Source: ANME-2 cluster archaeon
Lineage (GTDB): Archaea; Halobacteriota; Methanosarcinia; Methanosarcinales; Methanocomedenaceae
Length of the DNA stretch: 43,520 nucleotides
Direction of reading: 5' to 3'
Assembly: GCA_019429385.1 (NCBI GenBank)
Contig: JAHYIS010000021.1
Span: forward strand, 1 to 43,520
The notes beneath the pieces were generated by a model that saw only the letters and a program-made list of their open reading frames with translations, was not told where the DNA came from and did no database searches. The position numbers and the translations under genes are program-made. This document shows, piece after piece, positions 28,036-34,879 of the stretch. The number at the start of each line of letters is the position of its first letter. Within the stretch, counting starts at the first letter, position 1.

Positions 28036-28121
28036 CGATCATGAACCGTCAACAGTCTTATGCTCCGTTAAGAAAAACTATTTAGCTGGTCTCTTCCATG
28101 AGAAATCAGGAGACAGGTATC

Positions 28122-28901
28122 ATGTGGCGGTTTATGGATGCAGATTTAAGAGATGGGGCGTACAGTGCTGCCCTGTTCCATTCCATCGGGCGCCATGTAG
28201 GCTCTGGCGACAGTGACGAAACCATACTTTTCTGGAGGGCCAAACGTCCAACTCTTTATGTGGGCTACCACCAGTATGTGGAAGATGAGGTCCATGAAGA
28301 CTATTGCCAGGAGTATAATATTGACATCGTGCGCAGGATACTGGGGGGAGGATGCGGATACTGTGACCAGGACCAGGTGTTGTTCTCAGTCATAGGCACA
28401 CAGGACGGGCTAATGCCTGGTAATGTCCAGGCTGCATACAATAAGGTGCTATCAGGCATGATGCTGGCGCTTGAAGCTTTTGGTCTGGAAGGTGAAGTGG
28501 ACACGACACGAAATGGTGTCTTCGTCCAGGGGCGTAAAATATCAGGTAATGCCCAGGGGCGGTTCGATGGTGCTGTAATGGTCAATGGCAGTTTTTTGCT
28601 CGATTTTGATTTTGATACCATGGATCGTGTACTGAAACATCCTACCAGAAATCTGCGACCCGAAGTGAAGACTGCCAGGGAGGGAATGGTCACCCTGTCC
28701 GACCTGATGGAACTACCGCCAGTTGATATAATAAAACAGACACTGCGTTCAGGTTTTGAAGAGGCACTGGACATCGGTACTTATGAGGGGACGATATCGG
28801 GTGAGGAAGAACGGCTGGCTGTTGGGTTGACCCGGCAGTATGCATCATTGGAATGGACGTACCGGATGGATCAAAAGAGGGCAAAACGAAAAAAAGGATA
28901 A
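28122..28901 (+). CDS. LplA-like lipoate/octanoate transferase, divergent copy
   Basis: About 259 residues of the biotin/lipoate A-B ligase fold. RRILGGGCGYCDQD (from residue 71) corresponds to the RR..GGG..... lipoyl-AMP loop, and GRKISGNAQ (137-145) holds the conserved Lys. The usual 'HGTLL' is replaced by MVNGSFLLDFD. ATG 28122 is supported by AGGAGA 8 bases upstream and by alignment with the second ligase; ATG 28098 has no such site. The C-terminal accessory domain is absent and is encoded separately downstream, as in Thermoplasma-type bipartite LplA/LplB. It may be a second ligase with other carrier specificity or an amidotransferase. Confidence 0.8.
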   Translation: MWRFMDADLRDGAYSAALFHSIGRHVGSGDSDETILFWRAKRPTLYVGYHQYVEDEVHEDYCQEYNIDIVRRILGGGCGYCDQDQVLFSVIGTQDGLMPGNVQAAYNKVLSGMMLALEAFGLEGEVDTTRNGVFVQGRKISGNAQGRFDGAVMVNGSFLLDFDFDTMDRVLKHPTRNLRPEVKTAREGMVTLSDLMELPPVDIIKQTLRSGFEEALDIGTYEGTISGEEERLAVGLTRQYASLEWTYRMDQKRAKRKKG

Positions 28902-28947
28902 TGAAGGTAGACCAATCATAACAATAATTGAGAAAGGAGAAAAGAGT

Positions 28948-29241
28948 ATGGTACTGGAAGAATACCGAAAAGGCATTCACAAATCAAAGGGCGGAGTCAT
29001 CCGTTCGTTTTTAAAAGTGGATGGAGGGACCATTACAGACATTACATTTTCAGGAGATTTTTTTATGTACCCTGAAGATGCGATCGATAGTATCGAAGAA
29101 AGATTGAAAGGCACGGCTGCTAACACTGATGCAGTCCTGCTGGCAGTGGAACAGGTGTATGAATCAGAGCATATCCAGTCCCCAGGCACCACTCCCGGGG
29201 ATTTCACCCTTTCCATAATGCAGGCAATAGGAGGTGAGTAG
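28948..29241 (+). CDS. lplB: LplB-type accessory subunit of lipoate-protein ligase
   Basis: A 97-residue protein, MVLEEYRKGIHKSKGGVIRS, with KVDGGTITDITFSGDFFMYP and EQVYESEHIQSPGTTPGDF. This is the stand-alone C-terminal accessory domain of lipoate ligases, needed for the lipoate-activation step in archaeal bipartite enzymes. ATG 28948 has AGGAGA just upstream; the longer open frame is an overlap artefact. It abuts the next ligase gene with no spacer (TAG then ATG), so they are translationally linked. It may serve both flanking LplA copies. Confidence 0.85.
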   Translation: MVLEEYRKGIHKSKGGVIRSFLKVDGGTITDITFSGDFFMYPEDAIDSIEERLKGTAANTDAVLLAVEQVYESEHIQSPGTTPGDFTLSIMQAIGGE

Positions 29242-29988
29242 ATGGAACAGTGGAGATGTATTGATTTTGGCAAGGTGGATATCAGGGACATGATGGCCAT
29301 CAACGAAGCTATACACCGCAGTGATGAGGGCAATACCCTGTTCTTCTGGGCGCCCACAAAATCCATCATTCTTGGTTATTTCCAGAAAGCAGCAGTGGAA
29401 CTTGACCTTGAGAAGTGTAAAGATTATACCCTTGTCAGGCGCACCAGCGGCGGAGGTATTGCATTTTCAGATGACCTTGACAGGCAGATAAACTACGGTG
29501 TCGTAGGGACCATAGATGACGACAAGTTCCCGCTGGATATTGTGGAGTCATATAAGCAGATATGCGGTATGCTCATAGATACCCTGAAAGAGTACGGATT
29601 GAGTGCAGGTTTCCGTCCTATCAATGATGTGACTGTGGATAACAAGAAAATATCGGGTAATGCCATGACCCGGCGGGACAACAAGACCCTTCAGCACGGC
29701 ACCCTGCTGCTTGACTTCGATATCAGGGAAATGCTGTGCATTTCCAATATTCCCAAGGAGAAGTACATGGATAAACAGATACAGTCAATTGAACAGGGTA
29801 TGACATGGATGGATAGGGAACTGGGCTATCAATTGGACATTGATGAGGTCAAGGGGAATATCCGCAAGAACTTTGAGAGACGGTTCAGTGTTGATTTGAC
29901 AGATTCCACATTGTCAGGGAAGGAAAAGGCCATGGTCAGGGAACTGCTGCCTAAATACTATTCAGACGAATGGACATACAAGCGATAA
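29242..29988 (+). CDS. lplA: Lipoate-protein ligase catalytic subunit LplA
   Basis: A 248-residue protein with canonical motifs: RRTSGGGIAFSDD (66-78), the catalytic Lys in DNKKISGNAM (133-142) and QHGTLLLDFD (151-160). It lacks an accessory domain, which LplB upstream supplies. The reaction is ATP-dependent attachment of lipoate (or octanoate) to a Lys of a carrier protein. The two H-like carriers at 33955 and 34457 in the same operon are the obvious substrates. It resembles the sLpl(AB) type found with LipS1/LipS2 lipoyl synthases; that subtype assignment is inferred from context. Confidence 0.88.
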   Translation: MEQWRCIDFGKVDIRDMMAINEAIHRSDEGNTLFFWAPTKSIILGYFQKAAVELDLEKCKDYTLVRRTSGGGIAFSDDLDRQINYGVVGTIDDDKFPLDIVESYKQICGMLIDTLKEYGLSAGFRPINDVTVDNKKISGNAMTRRDNKTLQHGTLLLDFDIREMLCISNIPKEKYMDKQIQSIEQGMTWMDRELGYQLDIDEVKGNIRKNFERRFSVDLTDSTLSGKEKAMVRELLPKYYSDEWTYKR

Positions 29989-29995
29989 GGAGGAA

Positions 29996-31033
29996 TTGGA
30001 GGTTAGAGAGTTCGACCTTGAACAGATAGTGCTCCCTCAATTACGGGAACGTATGGAGGGAGCAAGGACCCGCACTATCGCACGGTCCGGCAGACGGTTG
30101 AACTTCTATATCACATCCAACCTTTTCCCCTCTATTTCCATTACTGGCAGCCAGTGCAGTCTCCATTGTAAACACTGCGGCGGAAAACTGCTGGAGCGCC
30201 TCATACCCTGTACGACACCGGACGACCTGGTGTCTACTGCATTAGTGGCAGAGATGCAGGGGGCAAAAGGTATTCTCGTAACCGGTGGATGTGATCCAAA
30301 GGGCAGGGTACCTGTTCCTGCCATATCTGCTGCCATTGCGACCATCAAGGAACGTACAGACCTGAGAGTGATAGCGCATACAGGTTTCATAACGCCGGAC
30401 GAAGCCGGACTGTTGCAGGATTCCGGTCTGGATGGTGCGGGTTTTGATGTCGTGGGCGATATGACGGTTGTTCGTGAGGTGTATGGTCTGGACCTTTCAG
30501 AGCAGGACTACATCTCAAGCCTGGATGCCCTCTCGGATGCAGGTATCATGTTATTCCCCCATGTTTGCGTAGGGTTGAATGCGGGCCGAGCAGGAGGTGA
30601 ACTCCATGCCCTTGAGATGATAAGGGGACGCACGGTGAGCACTGTGGTGATAACCGGCCTGATGCCGATTGAAGGTACTCCCTTTTCAGGCGCTAAACCT
30701 GATCCCATGGACTTTGCAAGGGTGATAACAGCAGCAGTGGAATTGTTTCCTGATACGCCAATCACCCTGGGTTGCGCCCGCTCATCGGGCCGGGACCGTG
30801 AACTCATTGATTATCTGGCCATCGAAAGCGGAGTTGAGAATATTGCCATTCCCACCAGGTATGCTGTGGAATATGCAAAGCGCAATGGTTATTCGACTGA
30901 TTACTACGGCACTTGTTGCGGCTTGCCGCCCAGTGACGATACCAGGATCGATACGCCTTTATATGATACCAGAGCGTCTGCGCCATTGTATGATACTGGT
31001 AACGCTTCAGCACTGCATGGAGGCGGGACATGA
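29996..31033 (+). CDS. Radical SAM protein, LipS-type lipoyl synthase component (paralogue A)
   Basis: A 345-residue protein. Radical SAM cysteines lie in CSLHCKHC (54, 58, 61), later HTGFI, VVREVYGLDL and LFPHVCVGLN follow the BATS-like barrel seen in biotin-synthase relatives. A CC pair at 307-308 (YGTCCGLPP) may ligate a second cluster that donates sulfur. LipS1/LipS2 together insert sulfur into octanoyl chains in archaea; this gene and the one at 32063 are paralogues with the same architecture. The tail has imperfect PLYDT repeats. It starts at TTG 29996 just after AAGGAGG, and its stop overlaps the next gene by 4 bases. Confidence 0.75.
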   Translation: MEVREFDLEQIVLPQLRERMEGARTRTIARSGRRLNFYITSNLFPSISITGSQCSLHCKHCGGKLLERLIPCTTPDDLVSTALVAEMQGAKGILVTGGCDPKGRVPVPAISAAIATIKERTDLRVIAHTGFITPDEAGLLQDSGLDGAGFDVVGDMTVVREVYGLDLSEQDYISSLDALSDAGIMLFPHVCVGLNAGRAGGELHALEMIRGRTVSTVVITGLMPIEGTPFSGAKPDPMDFARVITAAVELFPDTPITLGCARSSGRDRELIDYLAIESGVENIAIPTRYAVEYAKRNGYSTDYYGTCCGLPPSDDTRIDTPLYDTRASAPLYDTGNASALHGGGT

Positions 31034-32007
31034 GCCTGGTCAGAGCATCACTGGGTACGCTGGCGGTACTGGGCATGGAACTGATGCTCATGGATGCGCC
31101 CCCCACCACTGCATACCTGCAGATATACACTGAGCAGCGCTGCCGGGCCAATTGCCTGTTCTGTTCCCAGGCTAAGGATTCGGAGGGTGAGTTGAAGCAC
31201 ATCGCCAGGGGCCAGTACATGCCTGCAGACCTGGAAGAAGTAGTGAGGCGGCTGGGAATCGCTTTTGAGAACGGTTACCTCCACAGGGCATGCATCCAGA
31301 CGGCTATGTACCCTGGCATGTGGGAGGACACCCTGTACCTGATAGGGCGCATCAGGGAATCATGCAGCATTCCTATTTCATTATCCGTATTCCCTCTTGA
31401 TACTGATAAATATCAAACACTGTCAGGGATGAGCGTGGACCAGCTGGTAATTCCCCTTGATGCTTCAACCCCGGAATTGTTCCACAGGATAAAAGGTAAG
31501 GAGGCAGGGGGTCCATTTACCTGGGACAGCCATCTGGACGGTCTTAAACGTGCAGCAGCTGTATTCCCGCATGTGGGCACTCATATTATCGTTGGCATGG
31601 GCGAGACCGACAAAGAAGTTGTGGAACTGGTGGGCAGGTTGCACGGGATGGGTATTCATACTGCCCTGTTTGCATATACCAGGCTTCCTGGAACAAGGAA
31701 GTTGGATGTTGTGGAAGCGGCGCCTGATATCGGACATTACCGCAGGGTACAGATTGCTTCATACCTGTTACGACATGACCTGGTGCGGCTGGATGACATA
31801 GAGTTCGAGGGTGGGGATCTCACTCATTTCGGAGTTGGTGGACATGAATTGGAATCAATAATAGAAAAGGGCGAGGCTTTCATGACTACGGGCTGTGCCA
31901 ACTGCAACCGTCCCTATGCAACTGAAACCCACGACCCGGTGTACAATTATCCTGCTGCCCCGGGTGTCGGCGAGATAGATAAGATAAAACGGCAGATAAA
32001 GAAATAG
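31030..32007 (+). CDS. Radical SAM protein, second LipS-type lipoyl synthase component
   Basis: A 325-residue protein with CRANCLFC (Cys 38, 42, 45) and a C-terminal TTGCANCNRPY segment (Cys 289 and 292) that could hold an auxiliary 4Fe-4S cluster. The overall layout is like biotin synthase, distinct from the two paralogues flanking it. In the LipS1/LipS2 system two different radical SAM proteins act together, so this gene plus 29996 or 32063 would make a synthase pair. Start ATG 31030 overlaps the preceding stop (ATGA). Followed by a short GATG-rich spacer. Which LipS number it represents cannot be fixed from sequence alone. Confidence 0.72.
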   Translation: MSLVRASLGTLAVLGMELMLMDAPPTTAYLQIYTEQRCRANCLFCSQAKDSEGELKHIARGQYMPADLEEVVRRLGIAFENGYLHRACIQTAMYPGMWEDTLYLIGRIRESCSIPISLSVFPLDTDKYQTLSGMSVDQLVIPLDASTPELFHRIKGKEAGGPFTWDSHLDGLKRAAAVFPHVGTHIIVGMGETDKEVVELVGRLHGMGIHTALFAYTRLPGTRKLDVVEAAPDIGHYRRVQIASYLLRHDLVRLDDIEFEGGDLTHFGVGGHELESIIEKGEAFMTTGCANCNRPYATETHDPVYNYPAAPGVGEIDKIKRQIKK

Positions 32008-32041
32008 ATGCAGATGTAGATAGAGATGAAGGTGAAGATCG
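32006..32041 (+). repeat. GATG/GTAGAT-rich low-complexity spacer
   Basis: A short purine-rich run of AGATGN-type units between two radical SAM genes. It is not coding and contains no clear signal except the GAGGTG site just after it. Confidence 0.4.
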
Positions 32042-32062
32042 TAATTGAGGTGAATGGCGCGC

Positions 32063-33019
32063 ATGAGTTTTGATATCTACAAAGTGCATCATCGCATTAT
32101 GGATATGCAGGACATAAAACCCGGTCAGAAGGATGCTATGAAATCCGCTTTTGATGTACGCTTCCATAATTTTTCAAACAGGGTGCAATTTTTCCCGCAA
32201 CCGTTCTTACCTGTATCGGTCACAGGTACACATTGTGACCTCAACTGCAAACATTGTTCAACCCACTATCTGGAGCACATGGCAGATGCCGCATCCAATG
32301 ATCTGCAACATATCGCAGGTGACCTTGCCAGGCGTGGCGAAAACGGTATACTTCTCTCGGGAGGCAGTATGCACGACGGGTCAGTACCAACGTATGAACA
32401 GGGGGATGCCATCAGATCATTGAAGTCGGCCTTTGGCCTGAAGATAAGTGCCCATACCGGGCTGGTCAATAGAGAACAGGCATCATTTTTTCGGGAATAT
32501 GGGCTGGACATGGCCCTTGTGGATGTGATAGGCAGTGAAAGTACCATTCATGACGTGTACGGGCTGGACAGGACACCTGAGGATTATGATACTACCCTTT
32601 CCTATCTTGCCGATGAGGGCATCCCACTGGCACCCCATATCATAGTGGGCCTCCATGGCGGTAAACTTGACCACGAGTTCAGGGCACTTGAGATGGTACG
32701 GCAGTATGACCCTGAAGTAGTGGTCATCGTTGTATTCATACCTACAGATGGCACAGATTATAGAACCGCCCAGAAACCTGACATCAATGACGTAGTTGAA
32801 GTGATGACCGCAGCCAGGGAGATGTTCCCGTCCACGCCTTTATCGCTCAGCTGCGTGCGTCCGGGCGGCAGGTATCGTTCACTACTTGATGAATGTGCGC
32901 TGCTCTGCGGGCTGGACAGGATTGCAGTACCCAGCAGGCACTGTTACCGCGCGGCAGGGGAGATGGGGCTGGACATCATGGAAGTGGATAGGATGTGCTG
33001 CTCGTACGGAGGCGCTTAG
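32063..33019 (+). CDS. Radical SAM protein, LipS-type (paralogue B)
   Basis: About 318 residues. CDLNCKHC (Cys 58, 62, 65), HTGLVNREQ, IHDVYGLDRTPEDYD, LAPHIIVGLHGGK and a C-terminal CC (312-313, DRMCCSYGG) parallel the protein at 29996 throughout, so the two are paralogues. Differences include the residues after the third Cys (STHYLEHM against GGKLLERL). It may be a second synthase component serving the other carrier, or a different sulfur-inserting enzyme. ATG 32063 is preferred because GAGGTG lies 10 bases upstream; ATG 32054 is too close. The next gene starts directly after the stop. Confidence 0.72.
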   Translation: MSFDIYKVHHRIMDMQDIKPGQKDAMKSAFDVRFHNFSNRVQFFPQPFLPVSVTGTHCDLNCKHCSTHYLEHMADAASNDLQHIAGDLARRGENGILLSGGSMHDGSVPTYEQGDAIRSLKSAFGLKISAHTGLVNREQASFFREYGLDMALVDVIGSESTIHDVYGLDRTPEDYDTTLSYLADEGIPLAPHIIVGLHGGKLDHEFRALEMVRQYDPEVVVIVVFIPTDGTDYRTAQKPDINDVVEVMTAAREMFPSTPLSLSCVRPGGRYRSLLDECALLCGLDRIAVPSRHCYRAAGEMGLDIMEVDRMCCSYGGA

Positions 33020-33937
33020 ATGCCACAGACATCGTTAGAACCGGTAGCAGAGTCCAGGGGTGTTACTATCTTTGCACCAACGAGCGGCAAATTCTCGTTC
33101 ATGAAAAGCCCGTTTGCCGCCCACACCACCTTAAGCGCCGTTGATATCTATCCGGGCGGGGCGTTCGGGGATATGGCGTTATCACCTGTGGAAGGTACCG
33201 TTATAGACATCAGGGAATATCTTACACCTACGCCGTTCAAGTCCCGGGACTTCAGGGAGTATATCACTGCTGTCAGGCAGGGGGGCAGCGTGGTCAAAAT
33301 ATTACATGTGAAACCTGCCGTAAAGGTAGGGGATACCATATCTGCCGGTGACCCACTGGGCACCCTGATACATAATGGGTATTTTTATTTCTGGAATGAT
33401 CCACCCCTGCACGTTGAGGTCAGGCCGCAGGAAAATTATGTCCGTGCCAGTAATCATAATCCGCTAAAGTCATGTTTTGAATATTCCAGTAATGATACTT
33501 CACCTGAATCCACCATTCTATGCAGGGTGGTGTTTTCAGATGAGAGATTTGCGCTGCTTGAGGGTAGATATGAGGGACAGCAGGTAAAGGGATACAGGCT
33601 CGGAGGCTGCCTGCTGGATGGTCTGGTCCCGGTGGCACAGGTTGATGACATTGATTATTTCGGGCTTATCGGATTGCACCCGCCATGCTCTGTTATAAGG
33701 TCAGAGGGAAACCGGCACATGGTGTCAACTGACAAGGTAAAGGCCAGAGTGCAGACCAGTGTACAGGGCAAAGTGCAGACCAGGTCACAAGCAGGAGGAC
33801 AAGTGGATTGCCTGGCACTCGCGTTCTCCCTATCACATTCTGTCCCTACAATTAAAGTGATACCAAAACGGTACGGCCAGAAACTTTTTAGTATGGGAGA
33901 TGAAGTGATTATCAGATTATCAATATATGAGGATTGA
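33020..33937 (+). CDS. M23-peptidase-like/barrel-sandwich protein of unknown function in the lipoate operon
   Basis: A 305-residue protein. Residues about 30-140 resemble the duplicated-hybrid-motif fold of M23 peptidases and lipoyl domains: AAHTTLSAVDIYPG, ALSPVEGTVIDI, VKVGDTISAGDPLGTLI and PPLHVEVRP. H35, D42 and H131 could be metal ligands, but the first His of the usual HxH is Pro-Leu, so peptidase activity is doubtful; archaea also lack murein. The C-terminal half is not recognised and holds an 8-residue repeat (VQTS.QGKVQT). Located between the synthase-like and carrier genes, it may hold, present or modify the lipoyl group. That role is inference. Confidence 0.55.
   Translation: MPQTSLEPVAESRGVTIFAPTSGKFSFMKSPFAAHTTLSAVDIYPGGAFGDMALSPVEGTVIDIREYLTPTPFKSRDFREYITAVRQGGSVVKILHVKPAVKVGDTISAGDPLGTLIHNGYFYFWNDPPLHVEVRPQENYVRASNHNPLKSCFEYSSNDTSPESTILCRVVFSDERFALLEGRYEGQQVKGYRLGGCLLDGLVPVAQVDDIDYFGLIGLHPPCSVIRSEGNRHMVSTDKVKARVQTSVQGKVQTRSQAGGQVDCLALAFSLSHSVPTIKVIPKRYGQKLFSMGDEVIIRLSIYED
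33749..33783 (+). repeat. Short direct repeat inside the M23-like gene
   Basis: GTGCAGACCAG occurs at 33749-33759 and 33773-33783, a 24-base (8-codon) period, giving a low-complexity Gln/Thr/Val linker in the protein. Confidence 0.6.
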
Positions 33938-33954
33938 AGAGGTGAAATTGCGAA

Positions 33955-34380
33955 ATGCAGGTAGAAGATTTTGAATTCCCTGAAGATAGACTGTATCTGA
34001 AGAACCATGTATGGTTACTTGAGGGTGAATCATTGACCATTGGAATAACCCAGCTGGGCCAGAGCCTTTCCAAGGAGATCGTGCATATTGACCTGCCCGA
34101 TGAGGGCGAGACTGTGCATGCCCATGACCTGCTTGTAGCCTATGAGACCATTAAGGCTGTAAGCCAGATATCCCTGCCTTTTGATTGTGTGGTTGAGATG
34201 GTGAATGATGTGCTCTGGGATAAGCCCAACCTGATAAATGATGACCCGTATACGGTCTGGATGGTCAAGGTCAGTGGAGAGCTTGACCGCAATGCTCTGA
34301 TGGATGTTGAGACTGCATGCAATTACTACGGCAAACTGGTAAAGAAAGAACGTGAGAGGTATGCAGGTTACCGGGACTGA
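33955..34380 (+). CDS. GcvH-like lipoyl carrier protein 1
   Basis: A 141-residue H-protein-like fold: YLKNHVWLLEGESLTIGITQ at the start and the lipoyl-lysine hairpin YETIKAVSQISLPF with Lys67 at the modifiable position. The following loop, FDCVVEMVN, lacks the PVSG of standard GcvH. No GcvP or GcvT gene is in the window. Its place in an operon with lipoate ligases and LipS-type enzymes suggests it is lipoylated and used in another process, like LbpA carriers of the sHdr sulfur-oxidation system. The partner enzyme is not visible here. Confidence 0.8.
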   Translation: MQVEDFEFPEDRLYLKNHVWLLEGESLTIGITQLGQSLSKEIVHIDLPDEGETVHAHDLLVAYETIKAVSQISLPFDCVVEMVNDVLWDKPNLINDDPYTVWMVKVSGELDRNALMDVETACNYYGKLVKKERERYAGYRD

Positions 34381-34456
34381 TGAAGAGGGATTGAGAAAAC
34401 AGATATACAAATATATGTGAAAGAAATAATGATAAGATACATTTGAGTGGATCGAA

Positions 34457-34879
34457 ATGGTAGATATTGAAGGATATGAGATGCCTGATGAACTGTACTA
34501 TACGAAAGACCATACCTGGGCCAGGGTAGAGGACGATGGTACGGTTATCGTAGGTATTGACGCGTATGGCGGCACAGCAGCGGGTGAGATCGAATTTATC
34601 GACCTGCCCCTGATAGATGATGAGTTTCATGCAGGAGAGGCCTTTGGTTCGATGGAGTCAGCCAAATGGGTAGGCGGGCTGATCATGCCCACATCAGGCA
34701 AAGTAATTGAGGTCAACTCGGATATTGAGGACAATCTGGAACAATTGGCAGATGACCCGTATGGTGAAGGCTGGATGATCAGGGTGGAACCTTCCAACCT
34801 TGAAACCGACCTGTCCGGGTTGTACCACGGCAATGCTCTGGTGGAATGGTTTACTAAGGATCTTGAAGAGAGGGGTTGA
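34457..34879 (+). CDS. GcvH-like lipoyl carrier protein 2
   Basis: A 140-residue H-like protein: YYTKDHTWARVEDDGTVIVG, GEIEFIDLP and the lipoylation hairpin GSMESAKWVGGLIMPTSGKV with Lys70. The C-terminus (EGWMIRVEPSNLE) is also standard. It is closer to classic GcvH than carrier 1, but the residues after the Lys (WVGG) differ from the usual AAS/AVS. Two unlike carriers in one operon imply two client reactions or a relay. It lies 76 bases downstream of carrier 1, which leaves room for a separate signal, though none is clear. Confidence 0.82.
   Translation: MVDIEGYEMPDELYYTKDHTWARVEDDGTVIVGIDAYGGTAAGEIEFIDLPLIDDEFHAGEAFGSMESAKWVGGLIMPTSGKVIEVNSDIEDNLEQLADDPYGEGWMIRVEPSNLETDLSGLYHGNALVEWFTKDLEERG

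Follow-up and report, generated by a model that had tools for sequence, protein, structure and literature searches.

What does an anaerobic methane-oxidising archaeon do with protein-bound lipoate? We take up this question for a nine-gene operon in an archaeon of the ANME-2 cluster (ANME, anaerobic methanotrophic archaea). The operon lies at positions 28098–34879 on the + strand of a 43,520-nucleotide stretch of DNA, here called the window, which is one contig (G000:C21) of a 2.4 Mb genome estimated to be 100% complete. Its genes, in the order LplA1-LplB-LplA2-LipS1a-LipS2-LipS1b-M23-like-GcvHa-GcvHb, have near-zero spacing: the stop of LplB and the start of LplA2 fall at 29241/29242, LipS1a and LipS2 overlap by 4 bp (31030–31033), LipS1b and the M23-like gene meet at 33019/33020, and the gaps before GcvHa and GcvHb are 17 and 76 bp. 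We found every open reading frame of the nine compact same-strand genes that the original prediction had described, and profile searches (Pfam, and NCBIfam with its curated cut-offs), which are the basis of all our family assignments, agree with its calls of two LplA, one LplB, three radical S-adenosylmethionine (SAM) proteins, an M23-like protein and two GcvH-like carriers. Judged from sequence, it is close to certain that the operon is a LipS1/LipS2/LplA-LplB lipoyl-assembly line for two GcvH-fold carriers. Our preferred reading, which we consider an evenly balanced proposition, is that lipoyl-GcvHb is the thiol redox partner of a dedicated HdrABC complex (HdrA-lip), analogous to sHdr-LbpA, and that GcvHa, LipS1b and the M23-like protein form a second, accessory track.

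The carriers have the GcvH fold and score well against the GcvH model, as would suit H-proteins of a glycine cleavage system or proteins that feed a 2-oxoacid dehydrogenase. We searched the whole source genome, beyond the window, and found no GcvP, GcvT or E2 (PF00198), although the positive controls worked. Furthermore, five relatives that do have GcvT carry a dedicated third clade of GcvH directly beside it, in a GcvT-GcvH operon (L087–L091), separate from GcvHa and GcvHb. Because GcvP, GcvT and E2 are absent we rejected both kinds of client: a conventional role has a very slight probability overall and is close to refuted for the source genome, in line with the original prediction that the pathway is not glycine cleavage. 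Two other candidate partners were also rejected. The only protein resembling a canonical lipoamide dehydrogenase (E3-like; G000:C10:46758–48128) scores below the cut-off and is unlinked to the operon, and its family is not specific, since Methanosarcina and Methanocaldococcus controls match it too. A CoA-disulfide-reductase-like protein adjoins GcvHb in four genomes and occurs in many carrier genomes, yet it is missing from several GcvHb genomes and is therefore at most auxiliary.

The presence of HdrA-lip tracks that of the carriers. We defined this clade by the HdrA of an operon in genomes G020 and G040, and it stands sharply apart from other HdrA proteins (identity of at least 66%, versus at most 46%). 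In lists compiled by hand, 44 genomes have both a carrier and HdrA-lip, 8 have a carrier only, 5 have HdrA-lip only and 43 have neither; among genomes at least 90% complete, the corresponding numbers are 30, 2, 1 and 34. The original prediction had proposed co-occurrence with hdrABC-like genes as a check. GcvHb genomes that have neither LipS1 nor LipS2 (G020, G022, G032, G034, G040 and G043) retain HdrA-lip, which suggests that GcvHb is the core of the system and that LipS1/LipS2, GcvHa and the M23-like protein are its accessory, biosynthetic part.

The Hdr genes and the lipoate genes are also neighbors in some genomes. In G020 and G040 (family f2; L174 and L175), GcvHb lies directly downstream of a Glt-LplA3-HdrC-HdrB-HdrA operon, where Glt denotes glutamate synthase. 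The proteins of L175 have the make-up of an HdrABC complex–an HdrB with two CCG domains, a ferredoxin-type HdrC, and an HdrA with flavin and Fe-S domains. LplA1 is just downstream of hdrA-lip in a Glt-HdrCBA operon of G012 (L249). A single contig of G014 (L114) carries Glt-HdrCBA, followed by GcvHb, a one-cysteine pyridine-nucleotide disulfide reductase and a second Glu_synthase protein. In G001 (L035), hdrBA is just upstream of the complete lipoate operon, and in G085 (L183) HdrCBA is near GcvHa. Altogether, Hdr-lipoate neighborhoods occur in six genomes against about 0.6 expected by chance, according to a rough hand count that assumes 49 genomes with about three lipoate loci each and 10 kb of neighborhood in 2.5 Mb. 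The source genome has its own HdrCBA-lip at G000:C24, duplicated as C38, and the HdrA is a 91% identical ortholog of the G001 copy. C24 and C38 (L244 and L245) are identical over at least 12 kb, which may reflect assembly redundancy or a recent duplication.

Several observations weigh against an Hdr partnership. The HdrCBA-lip genes of the source genome are on another contig, unlinked to the lipoate operon, and the separate neighbor arrangements number only about five. The counts of co-occurrence include related genomes, which are non-independent, and the concordant contrasts are few: within genera g4, g5 and g8, between g9 and g13, and in family f4. Two near-complete genomes, G011 and G071, contain carriers but no HdrA-lip, and G044 has HdrA-lip without GcvHa or GcvHb. 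Finally, the whole set is missing from some ANME-2 genomes, so methane oxidation does not depend on it and its redox role would be accessory.

The recurrence of glutamate synthase in these neighborhoods raises another explanation: the main task of the carriers would be to deliver electrons to this enzyme for ammonium assimilation, and HdrABC or NuoEFG-like modules would feed the electrons in. Several lineages encode, inside the HdrCBA-lip operon, a glutamate synthase in three parts and a second CCG protein, and Glu_synthase proteins adjoin GcvHb or Hdr-lip in eight genomes (G011, G012, G014, G020, G040, G001, G006 and G009). In G011, which has no HdrA-lip, GcvHb follows NuoE-NuoF-NuoG-like and Glu_synthase-like genes. 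Glutamine synthetase adjoins HdrCBA in L246 and the lipoate block in L038, and P-II and ammonium transporter genes stand beside the Glt-Hdr operon in L248. However, HdrCBA-lip occurs without Glt genes in the source genome and in G004, G007 and G008, and the loci that we read in families f5 and f3 likewise have none beside it. We consider this explanation rather unlikely. Since HdrCBA stands alone in the source genome, ammonium assimilation is a possible outlet but not a general one; one outlet of Hdr-lip may be reducing power for this process, because Hdr-lip and glutamate synthase share an operon in several lineages.

A second explanation is sulfur metabolism of the sHdr-LbpA type, in which an Hdr-like complex that oxidises or reduces sulfur would have its sulfur intermediates bound to the carriers. 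LipS1/LipS2 and Lpl do serve sHdr in sulfur oxidisers (PMC10332631), and in Methanoperedens LipS1b or LipS2 can be found near genes for a sulfite-reductase-like protein, TusA, a PAPS-reductase-like protein and an ATP-sulfurylase-like protein. This proximity is confined to some Methanoperedens loci, however, and may reflect mere sulfur supply. LbpA proteins have two conserved cysteines near their N- and C-termini, although these are absent in some archaeal LbpAs. Our carriers do not have this pair: GcvHb has no cysteine, and GcvHa has only C78 and C122. The linked HdrA is of the full-length methanogen type with an FlpD/MvhD domain. No sHdr cluster (shdrC1B1A-hyp-C2B2) stands beside any of the loci that we read, a genome-wide search with an sHdr-specific model not having been made. 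We therefore regard the sulfur explanation as unlikely, slightly more so than the one based on glutamate synthase. The original prediction had placed the operon in a lipoyl-dependent redox or sulfur pathway; the evidence points to an Hdr-type redox client, whereas the missing LbpA cysteines and the methanogen-type HdrA argue against sHdr-LbpA sulfur oxidation. Two sulfur-related gene groups were seen in passing. In Methanoperedens nitroreducens (L042:11220–15207), LipS2 is preceded by genes for a nitrite/sulfite-reductase-type protein and TusA and by an ornithine-cyclodeaminase-like gene, and at 546–1716 of the window an open reading frame resembling YeeE/YedE sulfur transporters is followed by a small one resembling DUF3343 carriers (both frames recognized by eye).

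Under the Hdr partnership that we prefer, LplA2-LplB, and probably LplA1 too, would place octanoate or lipoate on the carrier lysine; the source of octanoate in archaea is an open question (PMC10332631). LipS2 would then insert sulfur at C8, and LipS1a or LipS1b would insert it at C6, if the chemistry is that of the Thermococcus enzymes. In the cytoplasm, two electrons would pass between lipoyl-GcvHb and the non-cubane clusters that HdrB carries in HdrABC-lip, the lipoyl disulfide being reduced or oxidised as has been proposed for sHdr-LbpA. An operon from another lineage (L211), with genes for an FAD oxidase, a CCG protein, GcvH and lipoamide dehydrogenase, provides an analogous hint.

The assembly genes fit this scheme in their families and catalytic residues. 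LipS2 (31030..32007) is a radical SAM enzyme of the LipS1/LipS2 lipoyl synthase (NF053743, 289.6 bits versus a cut-off of 270), and it is single-copy in every genome that has it. LipS1b (32054..33019) is of the canonical LipS1 type (NF053742, 253.9 bits versus a cut-off of 230), and LipS1a (29996..31033) is a divergent LipS1 paralog, a radical SAM sulfur-insertion enzyme scoring slightly under the same cut-off (208 bits). The two fall into separate clades (support of 100 and 99 in the Shimodaira-Hasegawa-like approximate likelihood ratio test, SH-aLRT). Both have the CX3CX2C motif (at 54 in LipS1a and 61 in LipS1b) and retain the cluster cysteines (260, 307 and 308 in LipS1a; 267, 315 and 316 in LipS1b). 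By mutual alignment and published motifs, both also have the equivalents of C230, C276, C277 and H159 of Thermococcus kodakarensis LipS1, which mutagenesis showed to be needed for the auxiliary cluster. The pair of LipS-like proteins noted in the original prediction is therefore real and consists of LipS1 paralogs, but the gene at 31030 that it set apart as a distinct radical SAM protein is LipS2; it is indeed a single gene, as are LplB and the M23-like gene. In four Methanoperedens loci (L239, L241, L242 and L243), LipS2 has as neighbors a Glu/Leu dehydrogenase-like gene and a pair of genes resembling subunits of ADP-forming acyl-CoA synthetase, a hint at acyl supply.

Of the ligases, LplA2 (29242..29988) is a lipoate-protein ligase catalytic subunit (PF21948, LplA-B_cat, E = 3e-43; NF053750 match) with RRxxGGG and K-I-S-G motifs. 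It is presumably paired with LplB (28948..29241, or from 28840 in a longer frame), the accessory subunit of a bipartite archaeal lipoate ligase (NF053749, 73.9 bits versus a cut-off of 65). LplA1 (28098..28901, with a start at 28098 or 28122) has a lipoate-protein-ligase-like catalytic domain (PF21948, E = 2e-38), but it is only 28.6% identical to LplA2 and belongs to a distinct clade. Its orthologs in relatives adjoin hdrA-lip (L249) or GcvHb (L196), at both loci with no LplB alongside. That LplA1 may be a LipM-type transferase is no more than a guess.

The two carriers, GcvHa (33955..34380; PF01597, GCV_H, E = 7e-22) and GcvHb (34457..34879; E = 3e-31), likewise form separate clades (SH-aLRT 100 and 98), and GcvHb groups with the carrier of the L211 operon. 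All 81 aligned carrier rows retain the lipoyl lysine, among them 33/33 GcvHa orthologs and the whole GcvHb clade, and the predicted lipoylation sites are K67 in GcvHa and K70 in GcvHb, the same positions as named before. A structure of GcvHa predicted without an alignment was poor (predicted local distance difference test score, pLDDT, 52.7) and was not used. The original prediction had proposed two parallel lipoylation tracks. At dispersed loci in Methanoperedens, LipS1b is near GcvHa in three cases and LipS1a is near GcvHb in two close relatives, and the opposite pairings were not seen; this lends modest support to that proposal. Two further associations were seen in this genus. A protein of about 155 amino acids without a Pfam match, possibly a further partner, lies beside LipS1b or GcvHa at L192:9674–10147 and nine other loci (cluster c6). 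In two genomes (L185:343–4627 and L197:7314–11669), a very divergent third GcvH adjoins a DUF116/4Fe-4S protein, and a DGC-domain protein and an ArsA-like ATPase are encoded close by.

The M23-like protein (33020..33937) has an N-terminal domain of the M23 (LytM) fold and a C-terminal beta domain. Its match to PF01551 is weak (24.2 versus a cut-off of 28.7), as are those of the 18 of 24 homologs that matched, but an AlphaFold2 model (pLDDT 89.6) hits M23 peptidases in Foldseek with probability 1.00 and an E-value of about 1e-2. H35, D42, H96 and H131 are invariant, which suggests a metal site. Compared to the textbook HxxxD/HxH motifs, D42, H131 and H96 align, the histidine of HxxxD is replaced, with an invariant histidine at D-7 instead, and the first histidine of HxH is lost. 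No obvious signal peptide was seen. The protein adjoins LipS1b wherever both were read, and it occurs with LipS1 in 36 cases and without it in none. Our guess is that it is a metal-dependent amide hydrolase acting on lipoyl- or octanoyl-lysine, or a maturation factor, specific to LipS1b or GcvHa.

These properties also suit a different arrangement of the same parts, in which LipS2 and LipS1b build lipoate on GcvHa as a scaffold, the lipoyl-lysine amide bond is then cleaved by the M23-like protein, and the lipoate so released is attached to GcvHb by LplA1. There are two ligases to one LplB, and GcvHb occurs with a ligase and without LipS1 in G043 (L176) and in G020 and G040 (L174, L175), so GcvHb can apparently be charged by ligation alone. 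On the other hand, four genomes (G021, G033, G050 and G071) have GcvHa and LipS1b with no detectable M23-like protein, LipS1a adjoins GcvHb in G075 and G085, which suggests direct synthesis there, and the classic M23 sites are only partly retained. Such a relay seems to us improbable, about as much so as the sulfur explanation. Extending the Hdr partnership, we can tentatively imagine that in anaerobic alkane-oxidising archaea protein-bound lipoate joins coenzymes M and B as a third thiol/disulfide electron carrier and has an HdrABC of its own to read it, and that a separate GcvHa/LipS1b/M23-like branch has a cytosolic M23-fold enzyme acting on lipoyl-lysine, but we rate this as distinctly less likely than the partnership itself.

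The original prediction had proposed a search for conservation of the whole block. The order of the block is identical in ANME-2 metagenome-assembled genomes of the same genus whose contigs are complete, and also in a second genus (L038). The flanking genes differ, which places the borders of the block at LplA1 and GcvHb. In other families its genes are arranged differently. This identity of order, together with conservation of the families across ANME-2 lineages, argues that the operon is not a chance assemblage. In an even sample of the phylum, LipS1 was present in 7 of 394 genomes, six of them from this order and with two copies each. LipS1, GcvH and HdrA-lip are all absent from family f4 (30 genomes). 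When 84,980 species genomes were scanned with a pattern for the M23-like family, 36 loci were found, all under titles naming Methanosarcinales, ANME-2, Methanoperedens, Euryarchaeota or uncultured archaea, and we found no plasmid homologs of LipS1b or the M23-like protein.

Electron transfer among thiols, ferredoxin and F420 is a main open problem of anaerobic methane oxidation, and for ANME-2 the HdrABC clade is a concrete, testable candidate client for lipoate, alongside an undescribed protein family tied to LipS1. Our literature searches on lipoate or lipoyl in ANME-2 or Methanoperedens returned nothing relevant, and lipoate goes unmentioned in the main text of a 2022 comparative genomics paper on ANME. 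Neither the chemistry of assembly nor the fold of the carriers is new, but in the literature that we searched we found no description of the doubled gene set, of the M23-like partner confined to ANME-2 or of the association with a dedicated HdrABC clade. Tanabe et al. reported sHdr in only 8% of the archaea that have LipS1/LipS2 (PMC10332631), which means that the two enzymes are not confined to organisms that oxidise sulfur. The operon shares with the LipS1/LipS2 plus LplA-LplB or sLpl(AB) systems of T. kodakarensis and sulfur oxidisers (PMC9585515, PMC10332631) the LipS2, LipS1 and LplA-LplB genes, the radical SAM and auxiliary-cluster ligands, and the clustering with a GcvH-fold acceptor, but it has two LipS1 per LipS2, two LplA, two carriers and the M23-like protein. 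With the glycine cleavage H-protein it shares the fold and lipoyl lysine motif, but its genome has no P- or T-protein and its carriers are in a separate clade from the true H-protein of relatives. The G139 operon (L211: FAD oxidase-CCG protein-GcvH-lipoamide dehydrogenase-LipS1-LipS2-LplA) similarly combines a CCG-domain protein, a carrier that is sister to GcvHb and assembly genes, but it includes a lipoamide-dehydrogenase-like partner and one LipS1, and its LipS2 is apparently fused to an LplB-like domain (L211:8650–9786). Like sHdr-LbpA (PMC6067878), the system that we propose would join a GcvH-fold lipoyl carrier, LipS1/S2 assembly genes and an Hdr complex; it differs in that the carriers have no LbpA cysteine pair, the Hdr is a methanogen-type HdrABC that is often unlinked or tied to glutamate synthase, and the hosts are anaerobic methane oxidisers.

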